From NCBI GenBank assembly GCA_022843825.1, contig JALHMX010000017.1, positions 1 to 44,346 on the forward strand: 44,346 bases of DNA, in the 5' to 3' direction. Shown one piece after another: positions 7,403 to 16,719 of this stretch. The notes beneath the pieces are model-generated. The model was not told the origin of the DNA. It did no database searches and saw only the letters and a list, made by a program, of their open reading frames with translations. Position 1 is the first letter of the stretch; the number at the start of each line of letters is the position of its first letter. This DNA is from Pseudobdellovibrionaceae bacterium. Lineage in GTDB: Bacteria > Bdellovibrionota > Bdellovibrionia > Bdellovibrionales > Bdellovibrionaceae. The translations under genes and the position numbers were made by a program.

Positions 7403-8020
7403 ATGAAAACAAAAGATAGAATTTTACTGGTGTCTTTGGAGCTTTTTAATAAAGATGGAGCCACTGAAGTCACCACAAACGATATAGCTAAAGCATTGAA
7501 GATGAGTCCAGGTAATTTATATTTTCACTACAAGAATAAAGAGCAAATTATTCGCGAGATTTTTAAAAAGATGATGGTTGACGCGCAGACGATATGGCGT
7601 CCCCAAACTAAAATTGCTAAACGCAAGGAGCGTTTTCAGTTGGAAGATTTTGTAGATAAAAATTTGCTATTGTACTGGAAATACAGATTTTTTCACCGAG
7701 AGATGTATATACTTCGAAAAAAAGATGCTGATTTATCTAAGTTATGGCATCGGCATCTTAAAAAAATCAGTGTGCTTATGGTTATCCTTTACAAACACTG
7801 GGTTAAGTCCGGCTATATGATAAAAATTCAGTCTCGAAGTGAAATGGAATTTTTAGCAGAATTGTTATTTGTTATTTCGAACAGTTTTATGCAGTTCTTT
7901 GAAACTCGCGACAGAGGTGCGGTTCCAAGTCCTCGCACGATTGAAAAAGCTAAGCGGCATATAATGCGAATGTTGATTCCCTATTTGAGCGAAGAGACTA
8001 AAAAAGAGGTTTGTTTATGA
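7403..8020 (+). CDS. TetR/AcrR-family transcriptional regulator
   Basis: The 205-residue product has a classical N-terminal helix-turn-helix. Residues 4-25 form the first helices (RILLVSLELFNKDG), and TTNDIAKALKMSPGNLYFHYKNKEQI (about 25-50) carries the recognition helix with the family signature LYxHFxxKExL. The C-terminal part is helical and would be the ligand-binding and dimerisation domain; its ligand cannot be told from sequence. The ATG has no Shine-Dalgarno and follows TATATT directly. The gene overlaps the next one by four bases (ATGA), so regulator and secreted coiled-coil protein are co-translated. It is divergent from the PBP operon, a possible target along with its own promoter. 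Confidence 0.92.
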   Translation: MKTKDRILLVSLELFNKDGATEVTTNDIAKALKMSPGNLYFHYKNKEQIIREIFKKMMVDAQTIWRPQTKIAKRKERFQLEDFVDKNLLLYWKYRFFHREMYILRKKDADLSKLWHRHLKKISVLMVILYKHWVKSGYMIKIQSRSEMEFLAELLFVISNSFMQFFETRDRGAVPSPRTIEKAKRHIMRMLIPYLSEETKKEVCL

Positions 8021-8394
8021 AAATATTTTTCGTTTTAATTTTTGGTATTAGTTTACATATCCCAACAGTCAGCAATAGCGCAAAAACGACCCGGAAAACG
8101 GCCAACGATTCATGTGCCAGCTTTATAAGCGATTTTAAACAAATGAGACAAGCTCAGGACTCAATTCAGCAGTCGTTGATTTCAAATCACGACATGATGG
8201 CCGATAGTCTGAAAACTTATGCGGATGCTTTAAAAGAGACCAGCGGTAAAGCCTACAAGCAGGTTACTGAAAACATGCATAAAGCTAGTGAATCAGTAAG
8301 AAAAAGAAAAACAAAGGCAGAGGATATAGCTAAAGAATTCGCGAAAAAGTCCTTAGAACTGCAAAAAACAGCTGAAAAGTGCATAAAAAAATAA
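8017..8394 (+). CDS. Small secreted coiled-coil protein, unknown function
   Basis: From the ATG at 8017, overlapping the regulator stop by four bases and preceded by AGAGG, the product is 125 residues. The N-terminus (residues 1-22, ending near NSA) is a signal peptide. The mature part is a long, Lys/Glu/Ala-rich amphipathic helix, very likely a coiled coil, with two cysteines (CASF near residue 34 and a C-terminal CIKK). The composition recalls phasin-like or apolipoprotein-like helical proteins, but the secretion signal argues for a periplasmic role. An in-frame TTG at 8011 is a worse start. The function is unknown. Confidence 0.75.
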   Translation: MKIFFVLIFGISLHIPTVSNSAKTTRKTANDSCASFISDFKQMRQAQDSIQQSLISNHDMMADSLKTYADALKETSGKAYKQVTENMHKASESVRKRKTKAEDIAKEFAKKSLELQKTAEKCIKK

Positions 8395-8410
8395 TATTAT
8401 ACAACATAAC

Positions 8411-8429
8411 GCGCCCGAGCATTAGGCGC
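8411..8429 (+). terminator. Weak hairpin after the TetR operon
   Basis: GCGCC (8411-8415) can pair with GGCGC (8425-8429) around a 9-base loop, 17 bases after the stop of the coiled-coil gene. What follows is AT-rich (ATATTATTAAAAT) but not a proper T tract, so termination is possible, not established. Confidence 0.3.
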
Positions 8430-8526
8430 ATATTATTAAAATACTATATAATTCGAATATTTGAGGAATTTCACTTACTTTAAGATTTTTATTGCAAAAG
8501 TTACAAAATTCCTTTTTCATATCTGC

Positions 8527-8617
8527 AGTTCCAATTTGGAACTTAAGTTATTGGAAAAGGTTTCCGATAAGCAGCATCCAGGACCTAAGTCGAGCATTGG
8601 TCTAGTCTTTAAAGACT
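8527..8617. promoter_or_regulatory. Three palindromes upstream of the DksA-like gene
   Basis: Within 91 bases lie AGTTCCAA-T-TTGGAACT (8527-8543), GGAAA-AGG-TTTCC (8553-8565) and the perfect 14-mer AGTCTTTAAAGACT (8604-8617). They occupy the 277-base region before the DksA-like gene, whose strong AAGGAGG follows at 8661. They could be operator sites for dimeric repressors or form a structured 5' leader. No known riboswitch consensus is recognised. Confidence 0.4.
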
Positions 8618-8671
8618 GATTAACCGCTTCAAAAGACAAAGTGTTCTAAGGTGCATTAACAAGGAGGATTC

Positions 8672-9145
8672 GTGGCAAAGTTAACAGCTGTTAAAGAAAA
8701 ACCAGCAAAAGCATCTAAGGCGTCTTCAGTTGCTTCCGTAAAAGAAATTAAAGTGACGGCTAAGCCTGTCGCGAAACCTCAAGGTTTATCTGAAGGCTTA
8801 ATCTCTGAGTGTCGTGAAAAACTTTTACTTATTAAATCTGATTTACTTAATCGCGTAAAAGAAGCCCGCGGCAAGCTTGATCAATTCGAGCGCGGTGGAG
8901 ACGAAGCTGACCAAACCATGAGATTATTGGCTGAACAAGAAATGTTGACCTTAACAGATCGACTAAGATCACAACTTTTAGAAATTGAAAGCGCCTTAGG
9001 CCGCATTGAAAACGGTCATTTTGGATACTGTGAAGAAACAGATGAGATGATCGAAGTGGAGCGCTTGCGGGCTATTCCATGGACACGATTGAGCATCGAA
9101 GGCGCAGAAATTCGTGAATCCGTTAATAAGCGATACGCGCGATAA
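8672..9145 (+). CDS. DksA/TraR-family RNA polymerase-binding protein with degenerate zinc finger
   Basis: DksA proteins enter the secondary channel of RNA polymerase and act with ppGpp. The 157-residue product begins with a GTG four bases after AAGGAGG. It has a Lys/Ala-rich N-terminal extension (about 1-37), then the coiled coil with the tip motif DEADQT (the usual DxxDxA with Thr for Ala) and a C-terminal zinc-finger region. Of the four zinc cysteines only the first survives: GYC-EE-T, then 17 residues, then S-IE-G. The remaining fold markers (GRIENGHFGYCEETDE, LRAIPWTRLSI) are clear. It is thus probably a zinc-independent DksA paralogue, as described for Pseudomonas DksA2. It could modulate transcription of the adjacent glycan locus, but this is not shown. 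Confidence 0.88.
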   Translation: MAKLTAVKEKPAKASKASSVASVKEIKVTAKPVAKPQGLSEGLISECREKLLLIKSDLLNRVKEARGKLDQFERGGDEADQTMRLLAEQEMLTLTDRLRSQLLEIESALGRIENGHFGYCEETDEMIEVERLRAIPWTRLSIEGAEIRESVNKRYAR

Positions 9146-9184
9146 AGTATTGATCCTCTGATAGAGTAGTGGCAGTATCGGGTG

Positions 9185-10558
9185 ATGAAATTCACTCCTA
9201 TTATATTAAGCGGTGGTAGTGGTACGCGTTTATGGCCCGTCTCTAGAAAACAATATCCTAAGCAATTCTGTGACTTATTAGATAAATCGTTACAAACCCT
9301 AACAATAGAGCGTCTGCAAAAATATGGCGCTGGTGTGATTGTAACTTCCGCGACCTTAAAAACCTTAACTGAAAAAAATATTCTTCAAAATAATTTAAAA
9401 ATATCCAAAGTCTTGTATGAACCCGTTGGAAAAAACACTGCACCGGCGGTGGCTTTAGCCTGTCGTTACTTAGAGTTTCAAGGAAAGTCTGAAGAAATTA
9501 TTGCAGTATTCCCATCGGATGCGCAAATTTTGAAGCCTGAAGTTTTAGATACTGTTTTAAAGACAGCTATAGATCAGGCCCAATCAGGTTCCGTAGTGAC
9601 TTTGGGAATTCAGCCAAAAGCCCCAGAAACTGGTTTTGGCTACATTCAGGTTAAGCACGGAGCTACTTTGAATCAAGTTGCAGAGGTTTTAAAGTTTCAT
9701 GAAAAGCCAAATTTAGATAAAGCTAAAGAATTTTTGGCTGATGGCAATTTTTTTTGGAATGCCGGCATTTTTATTTTTAAAGTTTCAAAGATGATCGAAC
9801 ATTTTAAAAAATATGAGCCTGAGTTATGGCAAAAAATAGCTGTGTTAAAAAATGATTTATCTAACTTAGAAGAAATTTATGGGTCGTTGAAAAGCATTTC
9901 CTTGGATTATGCTGTTATGGAAAAGCTTAACTCTAACGAACTTAAGTGTATCCCCTGTGAAATGGGTTGGAGTGATTTAGGTTCGTGGGATGTCGTGGTA
10001 GAAAACGCAACGGGTAATGTGAATCCCACCCAGGTTGGCGCTAAAGGTAATGCTGTGTTTTCCAGAGAAAATAAAAAATATGGTCTGGTCGGATGTGATG
10101 ATCTTATTGTGGTGGATACCGCCGATGCACTTATGATCTGTAAAAAAGGCGAATCACAAAAGGTTAAGGATTTAGTCGAAAGCTTTGAGAAAACCGATGC
10201 CAAAATTGTTACACAGCATACCGTTGAGCACCGCCCCTGGGGAAAATTTGAAATTTTACGTGATGAGGCTTATTTTAAATCAAAAATTATCACTGTGGAG
10301 CCAGGCCAGCAAATTTCTTATCAATCGCACGCAAAGCGCTCTGAACATTGGGTGATTGTGCAGGGTGAAGCATTTGTTATTTTGAACGATGAAGAAATAA
10401 AAAGAAAAGCGGGCGAATATATTTTTATTCCAGTAGGGGCTAAGCACAGAATTATTAATCGTTCACAGTATTCTGTGGAGTTTGTAGAAGTTCAAACGGG
10501 AACATATTTCGGCGAGGATGATATCGTAAGATATCAAGATGACTATGGTCGAGCATAA
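9185..10558 (+). CDS. manC: Mannose-1-phosphate guanylyltransferase / mannose-6-phosphate isomerase (ManC)
   Basis: ManC makes GDP-mannose from mannose-1-phosphate and GTP. The product has 457 residues from the ATG at 9185; an in-frame GTG lies one codon upstream. The nucleotidyltransferase domain opens with ILSGGSGTRLWPVSR (residues ~7-21), followed by KQFCDL, FPSDA and the FFWNAGIF segment. The C-terminal ~110 residues form the cupin isomerase domain with HRPWGKFEIL and PGQQISYQSHAKRSEHW, the type II bifunctional layout. No Shine-Dalgarno is visible. A weak TTGATC-17-CAGTAT pair ends six bases before the ATG, compatible with a leaderless start. It opens the polysaccharide locus and feeds Gmd, 18 bases downstream. 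Confidence 0.95.
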   Translation: MKFTPIILSGGSGTRLWPVSRKQYPKQFCDLLDKSLQTLTIERLQKYGAGVIVTSATLKTLTEKNILQNNLKISKVLYEPVGKNTAPAVALACRYLEFQGKSEEIIAVFPSDAQILKPEVLDTVLKTAIDQAQSGSVVTLGIQPKAPETGFGYIQVKHGATLNQVAEVLKFHEKPNLDKAKEFLADGNFFWNAGIFIFKVSKMIEHFKKYEPELWQKIAVLKNDLSNLEEIYGSLKSISLDYAVMEKLNSNELKCIPCEMGWSDLGSWDVVVENATGNVNPTQVGAKGNAVFSRENKKYGLVGCDDLIVVDTADALMICKKGESQKVKDLVESFEKTDAKIVTQHTVEHRPWGKFEILRDEAYFKSKIITVEPGQQISYQSHAKRSEHWVIVQGEAFVILNDEEIKRKAGEYIFIPVGAKHRIINRSQYSVEFVEVQTGTYFGEDDIVRYQDDYGRA

Positions 10559-10576
10559 TGACTTTATGGAGCTAAT

Positions 10577-11608
10577 TTGAAAAAAGCATTTATTACAGGA
10601 ATAACAGGACAAGATGGATCTTATTTAGCAGAGTTTTTATTAAACAAAGGCTACGAAGTTCATGCTATATTAAGACGTTCTTCTGTATTTACGACTGCTC
10701 GCATAGAGCATATTTTTAGAAATCCGCAGCTTAAAACGTATCATGGTGATTTAACGGACTCGAGCAACTTACATACCCTTTTGGCTAAAATACAGCCTGA
10801 TGAGGTTTATAATCTAGGAGCACAATCGCATGTCGCAGTATCTTTTGAAGTTCCAGAGTACACAGCTGAAGTCGATGCAGTAGGTACTATTCGGTTGCTT
10901 AACGCTATTAAAGATCTCGGAATTAAGACAAGATTTTATCAAGCTTCAACTTCAGAATTATTTGGCGGCTTACCCAATACTGCTCCGCAAAGTGAAATCA
11001 CTCCGTTTTATCCAAAATCGCCATATGGAGCTGCGAAACTTTATGCTTACTGGATTACGGTGAACTATCGTGAAGCCTATGATCTTTATGCGTGTAATGG
11101 AATTCTATTTAACCATGAGTCTCCTCGACGTGGAGAGACTTTTGTCACTAAAAAAATTACTCGCGCTGTCGCCAAAATTAAAAAAGGCCAGCAAAAAAAA
11201 ATAAGTTTAGGAAATTTAGATGCCCAACGTGACTGGGGCTACGCCAAAGAGTACGTCGAGGCGATGTGGCTCATGTTACAACAAGAAAAACCTAAAGATT
11301 ACGTCGTTGCAACAGGGAAAGTTTATACAGTTAGACAATTTGTGGAATATGCTTTTGAAGAAGTAGGTATCAACTTAAAATGGCAGGGTGTCGGCGTTAA
11401 TGAAAAAGGCTACGATGCTAAAACAAATGAAGTTTTGGTCGAGGTAGATACAAAGTATTATCGCCCAGCAGAAGTTCAATTGCTGTGGGGAGACGCTCGA
11501 CTGATTGAAGAAGAGTTAGGCTGGAAACCTAAAGTTCAATTAAAAGAGCTTGTCAGCTTAATGGTTAAGTATGATTTAGAAAATGACGGATACGGTGGTC
11601 AAGAATGA
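10577..11608 (+). CDS. gmd: GDP-mannose 4,6-dehydratase
   Basis: Gmd converts GDP-D-mannose to GDP-4-keto-6-deoxy-D-mannose, the branch point to fucose, rhamnose, perosamine and relatives. It is a 343-residue extended SDR. The NADP-binding motif [12 protein letters not shown] is at residues 8-19, and the family markers include QASTSELFG, the catalytic YGAAK and the strongly diagnostic [12 protein letters not shown]. The start is a TTG at 10577, five bases after GGAG. It is supported because it gives exactly the family N-terminus ([14 protein letters not shown]). The gene overlaps the following SDR by four bases (ATGA), so the product is likely handed straight to that enzyme. Confidence 0.96.
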
Positions 11609-12519
11609 TCATTGTTACAGGTGCTACAGGATTTTTAGGTAAGCGGGTTTGCAAGTTATTAGACACTAAAAATATTTCTTATCAAAAGACCTCCCTATCT
11701 ATGGGTCTAGATCTTCGTGAACAAAAAAAGACCGTAGATTTTTTTTCCAATTTTAAATCTGCGGTGGTTTTAAACTGTGCTTCTTTTGTGGGAGGCATTC
11801 AATATGGTTACAAGTATCCTGCTGATTTATTTAAAAACAATTGTGAAATAATAAACAATTTGTTTTTTGCATGTCATAAAGCTGGAGTAAAAAAAATTAT
11901 CAACCCTATTTCTAACTGCGTATATCCGGCCAAGGCAATGTTGTTTAAAGAAGATGAAATATGGAATGGACCTATGCATGATTCAGTGCTCGTCTATGGA
12001 ATGGTCCGTAAAGCGTCTTGGGTTGCATCGTGGGCCTATGCTAAACAGCACAACTTAGACACTATTAACTTGGTCATGTCGAACATGTACGGCCCCGAAG
12101 ACCACTTTGAAGAAGATCGTTCCCATGCTTTAGGCGCACTTATTATGAAGTTTGTTAAAGCAAAAACGGAAAATGCACCTTATGTCACCGTTTGGGGAAC
12201 CGGTACGCCAGTCCGAGAATGGTTGCATGTTGATGACGGTGCAGAAGCTATGGTTCGTGCTATGGATGCTAAACCAACAATTGATTTTGTGAATGTAGGA
12301 ATAGGAACCGGTATATCCATTAAAGATTTGGCTTTAAAGATTAAAAATGCAGTGGGTTTCAATGGCGAACTCGTATTTGACACAACGAAGCCTGATGGTG
12401 CTTATTATAAAACTGTTGAAGGATCTAGGGGCATCGCTTTGTTAAATTGGAAGCCTTCGCGCGAGTTGGATGCAGAAATTGTTAAAACAGTAGAATGGTA
12501 TAAAAGACATGTCGGATAA
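11605..12519 (+). CDS. GDP-L-fucose synthase-like SDR (epimerase/reductase)
   Basis: The 304-residue protein resembles GDP-fucose synthase (Fcl/WcaG), which epimerises and reduces GDP-4-keto-6-deoxymannose. Matching segments are [10 protein letters not shown] at 6-15, VGGIQ near 62, the ISNCVYP equivalent of SSCIYP (S103, C105), [13 protein letters not shown] (H174) and [16 protein letters not shown]. Cys105 and His174 align with the two epimerisation acids/bases of E. coli Fcl. The catalytic YxxxK is altered: Tyr131 is followed by Arg at the Lys position and then Lys136. The product sugar is therefore uncertain: fucose, a C3 or C5 epimer, or another 6-deoxyhexose. It is coupled to gmd by a 4-base overlap. 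Confidence 0.8.
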
Positions 12520-13075
12520 TATTTTTTTTGATATCAAAAAAATTAAAAAAATGGGCCAAAATGTTATTATTGGAAAAACAGTTCGCATTCGTTACCCTGA
12601 ATTGGTGGAAATTGGAGATAATGTAATCATTGATGATTTTACTTATATTTCAACGGCGCTTAAAATCGAAAATTATGTGCATATTGCTTCTGGTGCAAAA
12701 ATTATTGGAGGACGTGAAGCCACCGTTACATTTAAATCTTTTTCAACTTTAGCTCCGCAGGTGGTTTTAGCTGCCGGAAGTGACGATTATATTGCAGGAC
12801 TAGCCACTCCATTGGTACCGAGAGAGTTTAAAGGAAATGTCGACATAGGAGATATTATTATTGGTCGCCATAGTATTGTTGGTTCTGGTTCCGTTATTTT
12901 ACCAGGAGTTGAATTCGGAGAAGGAGCCTCAGTGGGAGCACTCTCTTTAGTTAAAAAGAATTTAGAGCCTTGGTATTTATATGCAGGAATTCCTGCAAAA
13001 AAAATGAAAAAAAGAGATAACGTTAAGATTTCAAACTTAGAAAAAGAATTTTTAAACTCTTTTAATCAAAAATAA
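12509..13075 (+). CDS. Left-handed beta-helix sugar acyltransferase (hexapeptide repeat)
   Basis: The 188-residue product consists mainly of hexapeptide repeats ([LIV]-G-x4): for example VEIGDNVIIDDFTYI near 31 and IIIGRHSIVGSGSVILPGVEFGEGASVGA near 124-153. It ends with the typical AGIPAKKMKKR tail of WbbJ/LacA-type O- or N-acetyltransferases. It probably transfers acetyl from acetyl-CoA to a sugar hydroxyl or amine. It overlaps the upstream SDR by 11 bases, placing it in the GDP-6-deoxyhexose block. If the DegT enzyme at 18827 makes a 4-amino sugar, this could be its N-acylase; otherwise it O-acetylates the glycan. Confidence 0.8.
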   Translation: MSDNIFFDIKKIKKMGQNVIIGKTVRIRYPELVEIGDNVIIDDFTYISTALKIENYVHIASGAKIIGGREATVTFKSFSTLAPQVVLAAGSDDYIAGLATPLVPREFKGNVDIGDIIIGRHSIVGSGSVILPGVEFGEGASVGALSLVKKNLEPWYLYAGIPAKKMKKRDNVKISNLEKEFLNSFNQK

Positions 13076-13998
13076 TGCTGAATGAATATAAAATAGCCAT
13101 TATTGGAAGTTCAGGATTTCTTGCAAAAGAATTATTTAGTGCAATTGCTGATAAAAAACCAGTGCTGTCTTTAGGGCGACATCGTCCAGCATCCGTAAGT
13201 GATAATAATTTTATTTATTTAGATTTAAGTAAACCCCTAATAAAAAGCCCTTCATCTCAGGCAATCAAAATTGATACAGTAATATTCAATGCGGCCTTTA
13301 AAGGCCGATTCAAGGAGCCCTCGCCAGAGTGGTCTTCTCAAGGACAGATCTGTGCCCCTGATTTTGATTTGTTATTTAAAACTTTAAATTTTGAAGTCTC
13401 GCGTTTAATCACCATAGGATCCTCTGAAGAATATGGTGCCCGTGATACCGATCAATTGATTAAAGAAGATGAGCAGCTAAATCCACAATCTTCCTATGGT
13501 TATTGGAAAGTCAAACTTTATGAACAAGGATTAAAATGGTCAATGCAGAACAGTAAAGATTTTATTCATCTCAGACCGTTCAATATCTATGGTGTAGACG
13601 CAGATAAAAATATGTTTTTAAGATCATTGATAGAAACTTTATTAAAAGATGAAAAGTTCACCATGACTTTGGGACAGCAATACAGAAGTTTTGTTCACAT
13701 CAGTGTTATTGTTGAAACCATTTTAACACTGGTAGATGAGCTTAGATGGGAACAGTTTTGCAGAAAGAATTCCTTGAATGTCAGCAGTCCATTTTATTTT
13801 CAGCTGCAAGAGGTGGCGCATATAGTTCATTCACTTATAAATAAAGGCTCCTTAAATATTGGAGCCTTACCTTACAGGGATGAAGAGGTGTGGCACCAGA
13901 AGCCAGACCTTACTCTTTTAAATAAGCTTATTAAACGAGATTTGAATCTCGATTTTAAAAAAGAAATGCAAGAACTTATTAACGCATTTTCACAGTGA
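13075..13998 (+). CDS. NAD-dependent epimerase/dehydratase family protein (SDR)
   Basis: This 307-residue extended SDR has a Rossmann start AIIGSSGFLAKELF (residues 8-21), TIGSSEEYG around residue 120, the catalytic YGYWK and the substrate-domain motif LRPFNIYG. Ser, Tyr and Lys of the triad are all present, so it should be active. Substrate class cannot be fixed. It could reduce or epimerise the 4-keto sugar made by RfbG or Gmd, since the CDP-sugar genes lie on the other side of the convergent junction. The ATG overlaps the preceding stop (TAATG). Its 3' end overlaps the GT2 gene on the opposite strand by 20 bases. Confidence 0.82.
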   Translation: MLNEYKIAIIGSSGFLAKELFSAIADKKPVLSLGRHRPASVSDNNFIYLDLSKPLIKSPSSQAIKIDTVIFNAAFKGRFKEPSPEWSSQGQICAPDFDLLFKTLNFEVSRLITIGSSEEYGARDTDQLIKEDEQLNPQSSYGYWKVKLYEQGLKWSMQNSKDFIHLRPFNIYGVDADKNMFLRSLIETLLKDEKFTMTLGQQYRSFVHISVIVETILTLVDELRWEQFCRKNSLNVSSPFYFQLQEVAHIVHSLINKGSLNIGALPYRDEEVWHQKPDLTLLNKLIKRDLNLDFKKEMQELINAFSQ

Positions 13999-14893
13999 TA
14001 AGGCGAAAAAGTTTAGAGACCACACGAACTATAAGGTATTTCGGACAACACACAAAAAATTTAAAAGCATTCCAAAAAATAACTTTCGAAGTAAAACCCA
14101 TAAGTCGACGTTGTGGGTGTCTAAGTAAGTATTTTATCCAGATTGTATATTTGTAACTCAACAACAAGTTCAAGTCTTCCGGTGCGTTTGCTGATAGATA
14201 TTTAACAAGTTTGTTAATGTGATAAATATTAATTTGAGATGACATGTTTTTGCCATGCATTCGATACTTAGCAATAATTGAAGTTGAAATGTATATAGGT
14301 CCATTATTGACGGCCTCAAAAAGAAATGAGGTGTCTGAATAGCCTCCTCCTTTAAAGGGCGCTAGCTTTATGCTTTGCACACAATTCGATCGGTATAAAA
14401 AAGTGGGAAAAGCGGGATGAGAGCTTGTATGCAACAAATAATTTCTAAAAAAGTCACGTGAATTTTTCATCATCGAGTCTTGTGCATTTCTCATAAATAA
14501 AATGTTGGTGTGCATTTTATCTTTAATGATATACGAATTACCACCTACAGCTGACAGATCTGAATTCGAGTTCATTATTTTAATATAATCAGATAAACAG
14601 TTAGGCAAAAGAATATCATCATCATGAAACATCATAAAATATGTGGCCGCAACTTCACTTAAAATAAGATTAGTGTGATCGGTATAACTTAGATTATTTC
14701 TATAAACTACTTTCAGTTTATCATTTTTAGCAAATTTTTCTAAAAAATTTTTAATTTCAGGCTCAGTCGAATTATCTGAAACAATGACTTCATAGTTTTC
14801 ATAGTGTTGAACTAAGCAAGATTGCAGGGACTCTTTAAGATAGTCTAATCGATTTCTAGATAATATGAAAATTTGAACAAAAGGTTGATTCAC
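13979..14893 (-). CDS. Family 2 glycosyltransferase
   Basis: The 304-residue protein has the GT-A fold of GT2 enzymes: FILSRNRLDYLKESLQSCLVQ at 9-29, the VIVSDNST nucleotide-binding strand at 37-43, and the metal-binding HDDD (D91-D93). The C-terminal part contains WIKYLLRHP and a hydrophobic, basic helix that probably touches the inner membrane. It should add one sugar to the undecaprenyl-linked repeat unit on the cytoplasmic face. The start is a GTG at 14893, six bases after the rfbG stop, with AGGA upstream. It is the last gene of a seven-gene minus-strand block. Donor and acceptor are unknown. Confidence 0.88.
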   Translation of the reverse strand: MNQPFVQIFILSRNRLDYLKESLQSCLVQHYENYEVIVSDNSTEPEIKNFLEKFAKNDKLKVVYRNNLSYTDHTNLILSEVAATYFMMFHDDDILLPNCLSDYIKIMNSNSDLSAVGGNSYIIKDKMHTNILFMRNAQDSMMKNSRDFFRNYLLHTSSHPAFPTFLYRSNCVQSIKLAPFKGGGYSDTSFLFEAVNNGPIYISTSIIAKYRMHGKNMSSQINIYHINKLVKYLSANAPEDLNLLLSYKYTIWIKYLLRHPQRRLMGFTSKVIFWNAFKFFVCCPKYLIVRVVSKLFRLITVKMR

Positions 14894-14899
14894 GTTAAA

Positions 14900-15958
14900 T
14901 TATCTTTCCTGATATTCAGAAATTTGTCGTAAGGTATTATCTACGACTGATTCACCTTGCAGACGCCTTTTGTGCCAGTCTACCGTGGCTTCTAATGCTA
15001 TATCTAAATTCCAACGAGGTTTCCAACTAAGACTTGTCTTGGCCTTAGAGCAATCTAAGGCTAGTAAATGGGCTTCGTGTGGATTATTATCTGAATGTAC
15101 AACTTCATACTTAATAGCATTATTCCAAAACCGATTCATTGCTTGCAGAATATATTCGACGGTGCGGTGATCTGAATCCTCAGGTCCAAAATTAAACGCT
15201 GAAGCACAAGCTAGATCCTGCTCGTAAAGTTTTTGAGCTAATTGTAAGTAGCCATATACAGGTTCCAGTACATGTTGCCATGGGCGGACTGCAGAGGGAT
15301 TTCTTATGCTTAAGACATTTTTGTTGATCACTGATCGAACAGTGTCTGGTATTAGTCGATCTTGCGCCCAGTCGCCGCCACCAATTACATTTCCTGCGCG
15401 ACCGCTAGCCAGAAGCACACCCGACTGGTTAAAGAAAGAATTGCGATATGCTGAAGTAACCAGTTCAGAGCAGCCTTTACTGTTGCTATAGGGATCGTAG
15501 CCCCCCATGGGCTCGTGCTCTTTATAGCCAGCCTTACGCTCATGATTTTCATAACACTTGTCACTTGTTACGTTAACTATTGATCGAACAGAAGATGTTG
15601 ATCTAATAGCCTCAAACAAATTAACCGTTCCAATAACATTAGTCATGTAGGTTTCTAATGGCTCTTGATAAGAATAGCGCACGAGAGGTTGCGCAGCCAT
15701 ATGAATCACTATTTCAGGTTGAGCTTCTTTTATAGATTTTTTAAGTTGGTCTAAGTGTCGAACATCGCCAAGAATCGAATTCATATCTTGGGAAATTCTG
15801 AGTTCATCGAAAAGACTGGGTTGAGTAGGTGGCTGAAGCGCATACCCAGTGACATGGGCCCCCATTTTCAATAGCCATAGACTTGTCCAAGAGCCCTTAA
15901 AGCCTGTATGCCCAGTTAAGAAAACTTTTTTATTTTTCCAAAAACCAAAATCTACCAT
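14900..15958 (-). CDS. rfbG: CDP-glucose 4,6-dehydratase
   Basis: RfbG converts CDP-D-glucose to CDP-4-keto-6-deoxy-D-glucose with bound NAD. The 352-residue product from the ATG at 15958 has the characteristic start FWKNKKVFLTGHTGFKGSW, the catalytic YSNSKG (YxxxK), NVTSDKCYEN and RAGNVIGGGDWA, all diagnostic of this enzyme rather than RmlB. The longer reading from 15988 adds ten residues without family support. The chosen start overlaps the rfbF stop (ATATGGTAG). RfbF and RfbG stand in their normal order. The next enzyme of the classical 3,6-dideoxyhexose route (RfbH) is missing here. Confidence 0.95.
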   Translation of the reverse strand: MVDFGFWKNKKVFLTGHTGFKGSWTSLWLLKMGAHVTGYALQPPTQPSLFDELRISQDMNSILGDVRHLDQLKKSIKEAQPEIVIHMAAQPLVRYSYQEPLETYMTNVIGTVNLFEAIRSTSSVRSIVNVTSDKCYENHERKAGYKEHEPMGGYDPYSNSKGCSELVTSAYRNSFFNQSGVLLASGRAGNVIGGGDWAQDRLIPDTVRSVINKNVLSIRNPSAVRPWQHVLEPVYGYLQLAQKLYEQDLACASAFNFGPEDSDHRTVEYILQAMNRFWNNAIKYEVVHSDNNPHEAHLLALDCSKAKTSLSWKPRWNLDIALEATVDWHKRRLQGESVVDNTLRQISEYQER

Positions 15959-16719
15959 ATTTTCCAAGGCGCTTGGCTTGTGTTCCAAAGCTGTTCAAGA
16001 TAATTTTTGTCTCGCAAGGTATCCATAGGTTGCCAGAAACCGTTATGTTTATAGGTGTGCAGTTGCTTCGAGCTTGCCAATTGTTCTAAAGGCTCTCGCT
16101 CCCAAGAAGTCTCATCACTACCGATTAAATTAAGAGTTTCTGGCTTAAGTACGAAAAATCCGCCGTTAATCCAATGCCCATCACCCACAGGCTTCTCATT
16201 AAATTTCTTAACTAAAGATCCTTCGATAGATAAAGCTCCAAAGCGACCCGGCGCTTGAGTCGCAGTCACGGTGGCCATGCCTTTGTGCGAATCGTGAAAT
16301 TTAATCAGCTCTTTAATATTGATATCTGCTACGCCGTCTCCGTAGGTCATGCAAAAATCTTCATTATTTAGATATGACTTTATTCTTTTAAGTCGACCAC
16401 CTGTCATAGTATCTAAGCCAGTATCAACCAGCGTAACTTTCCAGGATTCAGAATTATTCTGATGAATTTCCATTTTATTATTTTTTAGATCAAACGTAAT
16501 ATCAGATGTATGTAAAAAATAATTCGCAAAATATTCTTTGATGACATAACTTTTATAGCCACAACAAATAATGAAATCGTTTAGCCCATGTGAAGAGTAT
16601 ATTTTCATGATGTGCCAAAGAAGTGGTCGACCACCAATCTCAATCATGGGTTTAGGTTTAAGATGGCTTTCCTCGCTGATACGGGTGCCAAGGCCCCCCG
16701 CAAGTATGACAACTTTCAT
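15952..16719 (-). CDS. rfbF: Glucose-1-phosphate cytidylyltransferase
   Basis: RfbF makes CDP-glucose from glucose-1-phosphate and CTP. The 255-residue protein has the nucleotidyltransferase signature LAGGLGTRISEES at 6-18, KPKPMIEIGGRPLLWHIM near 22-40 (the family KPMV/I-IGG), the TYGDGVAD metal-binding motif near 126-132, and GGFFVLKPE. The pattern G-GTR-I-SEE and the YGDG motif separate it from RmlA. Length is normal. It lies upstream of rfbG with overlapping ends and 25 bases downstream of the flippase gene. CDP-activation implies a CDP-6-deoxyhexose in the glycan. Confidence 0.95.
   Translation of the reverse strand: MKVVILAGGLGTRISEESHLKPKPMIEIGGRPLLWHIMKIYSSHGLNDFIICCGYKSYVIKEYFANYFLHTSDITFDLKNNKMEIHQNNSESWKVTLVDTGLDTMTGGRLKRIKSYLNNEDFCMTYGDGVADINIKELIKFHDSHKGMATVTATQAPGRFGALSIEGSLVKKFNEKPVGDGHWINGGFFVLKPETLNLIGSDETSWEREPLEQLASSKQLHTYKHNGFWQPMDTLRDKNYLEQLWNTSQAPWKIW

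Follow-up and report, generated by a model that had tools for sequence, protein, structure and literature searches.

A widespread DksA-family protein of Bdellovibrionales lacking three zinc ligands and four of the five ppGpp site 2 residues

The locus and its product

The window, meaning the whole stretch of 44,346 nucleotides analyzed here, comes from contig JALHMX010000017.1 of a Pseudobdellovibrionaceae bacterium. Positions 8672–9145 carry a gene, referred to here as A, with an upstream region of recognizable signals:

8480..8505, + strand: conserved A/T-rich block, a putative promoter element (TAAGATTTTT.ATTGCAA.A.TTACA), from the alignment of 9 loci of the same genus
8528..8542, no strand assigned: 15-bp palindrome GTTCCAATTTGGAAC, one instance of the GTTCCA-N3-TGG(A/C)AC element that precedes A, adjoining the sigma28 motif
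8543..8569, + strand: sigma28 (FliA) promoter motif TTAAG-N16-CCGATA, an exact match to the attack-phase consensus given in PMC3627812
8661..8667, + strand: ribosome-binding site AAGGAGG, read directly in the sequence
8672..9145, + strand: coding sequence of A, a zinc-free DksA/TraR-family protein of 157 amino acids with a GTG start, in a stop-to-stop frame of only 161 amino acids
8810..8812, + strand: codon of C47, an additional cysteine invariant in A and aligned with E. coli F40
8900..8917, + strand: coiled-coil tip DEADQT, residues 77–82, at the turn between model helices 41–70 and 78–114
9029..9103, + strand: zinc-finger remnant C120-x2-T123-x17-S141-x2-G144, from the alignment to E. coli DksA

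The protein belongs to the DksA/TraR superfamily (PF01258, 30.9 bits against a cut-off of 24.9). Its scores do not reach the cut-offs set for DksA equivalogs, namely TIGR02420 (54.2 of 115.5 bits) and NF033459 (49.2 of 105 bits), nor that of NF008045 (26.7 of 289 bits). The C4-type paralog of the same genome is also under the TIGR02420 cut-off, at 84.5 of 115.5 bits. A does not fit the TraR type, given its 157 residues, the 30- and 37-residue helices of its model and a TIGR02419 score of 16.2 against 59.7 bits. The Lys/Ala-rich N-terminal extension pointed out in the preliminary description occupies about residues 1–37; it is modeled at low confidence and is different or absent in 17 aligned relatives. 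A mobile origin of the gene was rejected because only 15 plasmid records and one phage record match it, all at less than 60% identity. A structured RNA leader was likewise rejected (fold z-score of -1.78, with 13 of 200 shuffled sequences folding equally well), and Rfam gave no match at the gathering threshold between 8300 and 9300.

Predicted fold

A phmmer search of the PDB with A returned four matches, of which P. aeruginosa DksA2 (4ijj) is the best (E 1.3e-10), followed in order by 2kq9, E. coli DksA (1tjl) and 6ptg. The AlphaFold2 model, built from 18 sequences with a mean pLDDT of 68.3 and a pTM of 0.52, contains helices at 41–70, 78–114 and 139–155. It thus shows the long antiparallel coiled coil and the C-terminal helix of the DksA type, the last helix at low confidence; the globular part is poor, with pLDDT below 50 for residues 139–152. 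With this model, Foldseek places the two chains of 4ijj at the top of its ranking (E 3.6e-5 and 9.4e-4), ahead of 1tjl in third place (3.0e-3). In VIA-align the two structures give the longest alignments listed, 120 residues, at Z 11.7 for 4ijj and 10.9 for 1tjl, which is a tie. Z scores of 11–12 are below the tool's safe level for helical hairpins; hairpins without relation to A score up to Z 10.6 over 76 residues, and the VIA score is therefore not decisive by itself. Overall, a DksA fold without the zinc ligands is well supported.

Zinc-finger remnant, coiled-coil tip and an additional cysteine

Conservation was assessed in a set of 172 DksA-like open reading frames, 153 of them different; collapsing one with identical last 100 residues and adding two PDB pieces gave 154 aligned rows. 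The group counts omit Leptospira L120, and the 32 C4 rows include PDB 2kq9 and E. coli DksA. A rows are those fetched as the best match of their genome and B rows those of a second zinc-free paralog, a division made by fetching and not by a resolved tree; the two are not cleanly separate in the 55-row tree described below.

As the preliminary description had stated, three of the four zinc cysteines are lost: C114, C117, C135 and C138 of E. coli DksA align with C120, T123, S141 and G144 of A. The combination C-T-S-G occupies these positions in 68 of the 69 A rows (C 69/69, T 69/69, S 68/69, G 69/69). Since it is kept across the A rows, the loss of the ligands is not chance, and as judged from the aligned sequences it is a trait of the whole clade.

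The tip of the coiled coil also reads as had been described, with D71-x-x-D74-x-A76 of E. coli replaced by D77-E-A-D80-Q-T82. Both aspartates of the DxxDxA motif are present, in the window protein as in all 69 A rows, and the alanine is replaced by threonine. This threonine is found in 67 of 69 A rows and so is not peculiar to the window gene. For Orf82 of phage P2, a TraR homolog, the absence of the matching alanine is offered as a partial reason for lower activity (PMC9239242), and the substitution in A therefore counts against the role proposed for it below. Two divergent zinc-free DksA-like proteins with a broken tip (DxxG) were seen in two genomes of family f2, at L086:2324-2692 and L090:2512-2913.

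All 68 readable A rows and 38 of 44 B rows have a cysteine at position 47, close to the coiled-coil base; it is missing from every one of the 32 C4 rows and the eight proteobacterial zinc-free rows. C47 and C120 are the sole two conserved cysteines of A; any other cysteine column is filled in at most 2 of 69 A rows. This pattern would suit a redox switch, in which a C47–C120 disulfide or another ligand takes the place of zinc as lock or sensor of the globular domain, and one cited paper describes the zinc finger of DksA as a thiol switch in its title. However, the B protein of the source genome has histidine at this position, and the cysteine pair may be kept for packing. On the alignment evidence a redox switch is considered quite improbable.

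Paralogs and distribution

PF01258 matches three proteins of the source genome: A, encoded in the window, and B and C, whose genes form a tandem on contig 13. Like A, B is of the zinc-free type, and C keeps the C4 arrangement (CESC...CISC); the second, C4-type dksA that had been proposed as a check on this locus is thus present. The same tandem of a zinc-free B and a C4-type C was observed in those loci of families f1, f7 and f10 that were read with C present (L001, L035–L053). In one genome of the window's genus two A-like matches were seen (G010:C83 and G010:C33), which are 88% and 78% identical to A of the window.

Some match was obtained in every one of 59 genomes of a first search, the source genome included, and A was not found in four of them (G007, G011, G023 and G027), one of which is 99% complete. 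A second set consisted of the 106 genomes of the class that are at least 90% complete, 103 of which belong to the order. A match at E <= 1e-36 exists in 100 of these 103, the exceptions being G007, G023 and G096. In 13 single-match genomes of the order exactly one PF01258 protein exceeds the cut-off, and it is always zinc-free and of the A/B type. Seven of the 13 also hold PF01258 matches below the cut-off, at 12–21 bits. The same search recovered the C4 paralog of G059, so the C4 type is detectable by it. Two matches over the cut-off were found in each of G040, G044, G052, G054 and G057; nine of these ten proteins were read and are zinc-free, and one G054 copy is known as a match only. The single matches over the cut-off in three genomes of another family of the class (G112–G114) are of the C4 type. 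Mean pairwise identity over the same 24 genomes is 0.655 for A, 0.512 for B and 0.457 for C, which makes A the most strongly conserved paralog.

These data bear on the proposal, made in the preliminary description, that A is a zinc-independent paralog like Pseudomonas DksA2, which would replace the C4 paralog when zinc is short. The structural half of the proposal stands: the best match is the zinc-free fold of 4ijj, DksA2 being the closest solved structure, and a C4 paralog is encoded in the same genome. In its favor also, P. aeruginosa DksA2 is described as repressed by Zur and produced only under zinc starvation (PMC9213440). The part that restricts A to zinc limitation is not supported. 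Matches of the A type occur in nearly the whole order, A is conserved better than either of its paralogs, and in 13 genomes the A/B type is alone over the cut-off. A role accessory to a C4 DksA thus describes the source genome and does not describe the clade.

Two trees were computed, one from 144 rows, with 10 rows of named loci omitted, and one from 55 picked rows; few columns and long branches limit both. With the zinc columns removed, A groups with B in a single clade (100/99.9), and a second one (99/97) unites the proteobacterial DksAs, those with zinc ligands and those without. Constraining all zinc-free rows to one clade lowers the log-likelihood by 22.3 with a p-AU of 0.040, a rough value because the tree rows were chosen after an earlier tree. 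A common origin of all zinc-free DksAs is therefore weakly rejected, and these sequences favor, though not with certainty, an independent zinc loss within the order.

Residues of ppGpp site 2

In E. coli DksA, K98, R91 and K139 contact the phosphates of ppGpp, L95 contacts the base and R129 makes a direct contact; the K98A and R129A proteins keep RNA polymerase binding and give no ppGpp support at site 2 (PMC7676912). The corresponding residues of the window protein (R91/L95/K98/R129/K139) are R-Q-E-I-A, one of five being retained, and A does not resemble DksA at this site. The full set R-L-K-R-K is found in E. coli DksA, in DksA2 and in three outgroup DksAs. Four of the five C paralogs of families f7 and f10 carry it too, the fifth having methionine for leucine.

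R-Q-E-I-A occurs in 58 of 69 A rows, and the remaining rows depart from it at one or two positions; none of the 69 carries Lys 98, Arg 129 or Lys 139. When A and B rows are taken together, R-Q-E-I-A is present in 79 of 113, alanine is invariant at 139 (113/113), Arg 129 and Lys 139 are missing throughout, and Lys at 98 occurs in the two divergent rows L086 and L090. On the RNA polymerase side, beta' N680 and K681 are both retained in each of the six rpoC genes read; a search of a seventh genome for rpoC gave no match. RelA/SpoT and omega are encoded once each in all seven genomes searched. This set of substitutions suggests that A is probably blind to ppGpp at site 2, and a loss of ppGpp binding is predicted, although other residues could rebuild a ppGpp site.

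Changes at site 2 were also observed among C4 paralogs. In the C proteins of family f1, to which Bdellovibrio and the window belong (L001, L035–L051, L091–L093 and L138), L95 and K98 are lost in 22 of 22 (one has Arg at 98), K139 is lost in 21 of 22 and the second tip aspartate is glutamate in 12 of 22. The C proteins of f7 and f10 keep K98, R129 and K139.

It might be that A is an ordinary ppGpp-coupled DksA that has merely lost zinc, as in alphaproteobacteria. In R. sphaeroides and S. meliloti the zinc-free forms act like DksA (PMC9239242), and RelA/SpoT, omega and the two rim-helix residues are all present in this group. However, among the eight proteobacterial zinc-free rows, the three alphaproteobacterial ones, like DksA2 and the Pantoea protein, keep at least R-L-K-R, which A does not, and L117 lacks L95 alone. 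The tree also separates A and B from the proteobacterial rows, with the likelihood cost given above for a joint zinc-free clade. An ordinary DksA is consequently regarded as unlikely. The remaining two rows, from betaproteobacterial plasmids (L113 and L116), are zinc-free with a degraded site 2, which counts against a simple story.

Promoter region and genomic context

The motif at 8543–8569 is the sole match to TTAAG-N15-17-CCGATA in the window when both strands are scanned, and FliA is encoded in the source genome. The N16 consensus was described in B. bacteriovorus for 92 of 140 attack-phase promoters and ascribed there to FliA (PMC3627812). The N15 or N16 form is present at nine of ten loci of the window's genus, the tenth (L010) having CCGAAA. 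In the alignment of nine such upstream regions the conserved block is followed by the palindrome GTTCCANNNTGGAAC and then directly by TTAAG, with CCGATA 15 or 16 bases further on in eight of the nine. A scan scored with a sigma28 consensus exceeded all 60 plain shuffles at ten of ten loci of the genus and at one of 45 others (L028). A sigma70 promoter was considered and rejected, a consensus scan of 8380–9260 giving none. In the B. bacteriovorus relatives that the scan covered (L019, L022, L095, L098, L100 and L125) the sigma28 motif was not found ahead of A, a point against the role proposed below, though expression there has been reported as attack-phase.

In a genome that is probably that of B. 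bacteriovorus HD100, A lies at 3.4227 Mb, B and C at 3.738 Mb and fliA at 3.2328 Mb. At roughly 0.97 kb per HD100 gene number, the dksA gene Bd3519 would be expected around 3.43 Mb, in agreement with the position of A and not with that of B or C. Bd3519 is thus probably A. Transcription of Bd3519 falls on exit from attack phase (PMC2797640), and fliA is bd3318 (PMC3627812). From its promoter motif, A is probably an attack-phase factor in the window's genus.

The exact palindrome pattern occurs at three places in the source genome, the reversed control at none; across 13 genomes there are 0–4 exact copies per genome and a single reversed site in total (G112). With at most one mismatch it lies upstream of 43 of the 153 different DksA-like reading frames, all in the A set and none in a C4 row (raw count). 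Much of the order carries this element, GTTCCANNNTGG(A/C)AC, ahead of A, and copies elsewhere lie at L173, L176–L179, L183, L185, L186 and L188. An order-wide regulon marked by the palindrome was rejected, the other exact sites being near genes that look unrelated (a protease, a LysR gene and others, from translations read by eye). Judged by eye, the palindrome does not look like the Zur box.

One Fur-family protein was found in the source genome, closer to Fur (109.6 bits) than to Zur (46.6 bits) with all scores below the cut-offs, and no Zur candidate was found in that genome. The gene of this sole match (L151:420-1908), whose product scores best as Fur, adjoins folE2. Elsewhere folE2 is often a member of zinc regulons. 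A TetR-family gene and a gene for a small secreted helical protein precede A in the window (7403–8394); among 67 other A loci, read with flanks of mixed length, the TetR gene is present in 28 and the small secreted protein in 18. The mannose-1-phosphate guanylyltransferase gene that follows A is shared with one of the 67 (L006, same genus). Pfam matches further downstream, at 9182–15988, include GDP-mannose, epimerase, hexapeptide-transferase and glycosyltransferase genes. No zinc-response neighborhood was seen around A.

Promoter and context thus add to the case against A as a spare for zinc starvation: the promoter motif is sigma28-like, the one Fur-family protein is nearer Fur than Zur, and the neighbors (TetR regulator, small secreted protein, GDP-mannose genes) are unlike those of the zinc-free Pantoea DksA, namely folE2 and a GTP-binding protein (COG0523 by inference). 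Distribution, the lack of a Zur candidate and the promoter type together led to its rejection as the main role, and a replacement of the C4 paralog under zinc shortage is judged very improbable.

Comparison with characterized relatives

The zinc-free DksA fold, the C-x2-T in the first half of the finger and the top rank in both sequence and fold searches liken A to DksA2 of P. aeruginosa (4ijj). The two differ in the finger as a whole (C-T-C-A in DksA2, C-T-S-G in A), and DksA2 retains the tip alanine and all five residues of the ppGpp site, in contrast to the tip threonine and single site residue of the window protein. DksA2 is described as a Zur-controlled spare, whereas A is a widespread form with R-Q-E-I-A. 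The S. meliloti pSymB copy (L114) is also zinc-free, with C-T-S-A, but retains R-L-K-R and the tip alanine and takes another position in the tree. R. sphaeroides RSP2654, compared here by its published description only, and S. meliloti SMc00469 are zinc-free and said to work like DksA, and the C4 finger is not universal among working DksAs (both from PMC9239242). The plasmid TraR/DksA proteins of Janthinobacterium (L113) and Vogesella (L116) are zinc-free (C-T-C-A), and their site 2 is degraded (R-Q-E-C-Q and R-K-D-N-Q) as in A. Unlike A, they retain the tip alanine, lack C47, are plasmid-borne and group with the proteobacterial rows.

E. coli DksA (fold match 1tjl) has the coiled coil, the two tip aspartates and the C-terminal helix in common with A, and differs in having the C4 zinc finger and a complete site 2 for ppGpp, neither of which A keeps. 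TraR acts without ppGpp. TraR and Orf73 of phage lambda are secondary-channel factors of the same superfamily, but they are short (73 residues for TraR) and retain the C4 zinc finger (PMC9239242). A literature search over titles and the openings of abstracts, with most subscription journals outside it, returned nothing on zinc or ppGpp residues of these proteins, and the text of PMC12622784 does not mention dksA.

Proposed role

Taken together, the observations argue, with somewhat better than even confidence, for A as a standing, zinc-free secondary-channel factor of the DksA type, belonging to the attack phase in the window's genus and independent of ppGpp at a dismantled site 2. The coiled coil would enter the secondary channel of RNA polymerase, the binding being predicted from the family and the intact tip aspartates. 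The globular domain would be held together without zinc, and zinc independence would be expected in vitro. A would serve as a standing regulator of its order and not as a spare for zinc shortage, and in the window's genus the sigma28 promoter would drive its expression. The ppGpp-binding face would be dismantled, and the effect of A on RNA polymerase would then be expected not to depend on ppGpp at site 2. Against this role stand, besides the points already raised, the four first-search genomes without A, the sub-cut-off PF01258 matches in seven of the 13 single-protein genomes, and the weak model of the globular part with its VIA score below the safe level.

Zinc-free DksAs are already known, and those tested are described as DksA-like in function. 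Here the loss of the zinc ligands is joined to the loss of the ppGpp-face residues and to a fixed new cysteine, in the best conserved of three paralogs. A broader reading, that much of the order gave up the DksA–ppGpp site 2 and that these predators run a ppGpp-blind, zinc-free and possibly thiol-gated RNA polymerase factor, is put forward tentatively, as somewhat less than an even prospect. If site 2 was indeed abandoned, stringent control would be left to site 1 or to other routes, and would differ in these predators from the E. coli model. The series of A, C and outgroup proteins offers natural controls for the DksA functions that need ppGpp at site 2, and the sigma28 promoter would tie A to the non-growing, hunting state of the cell.
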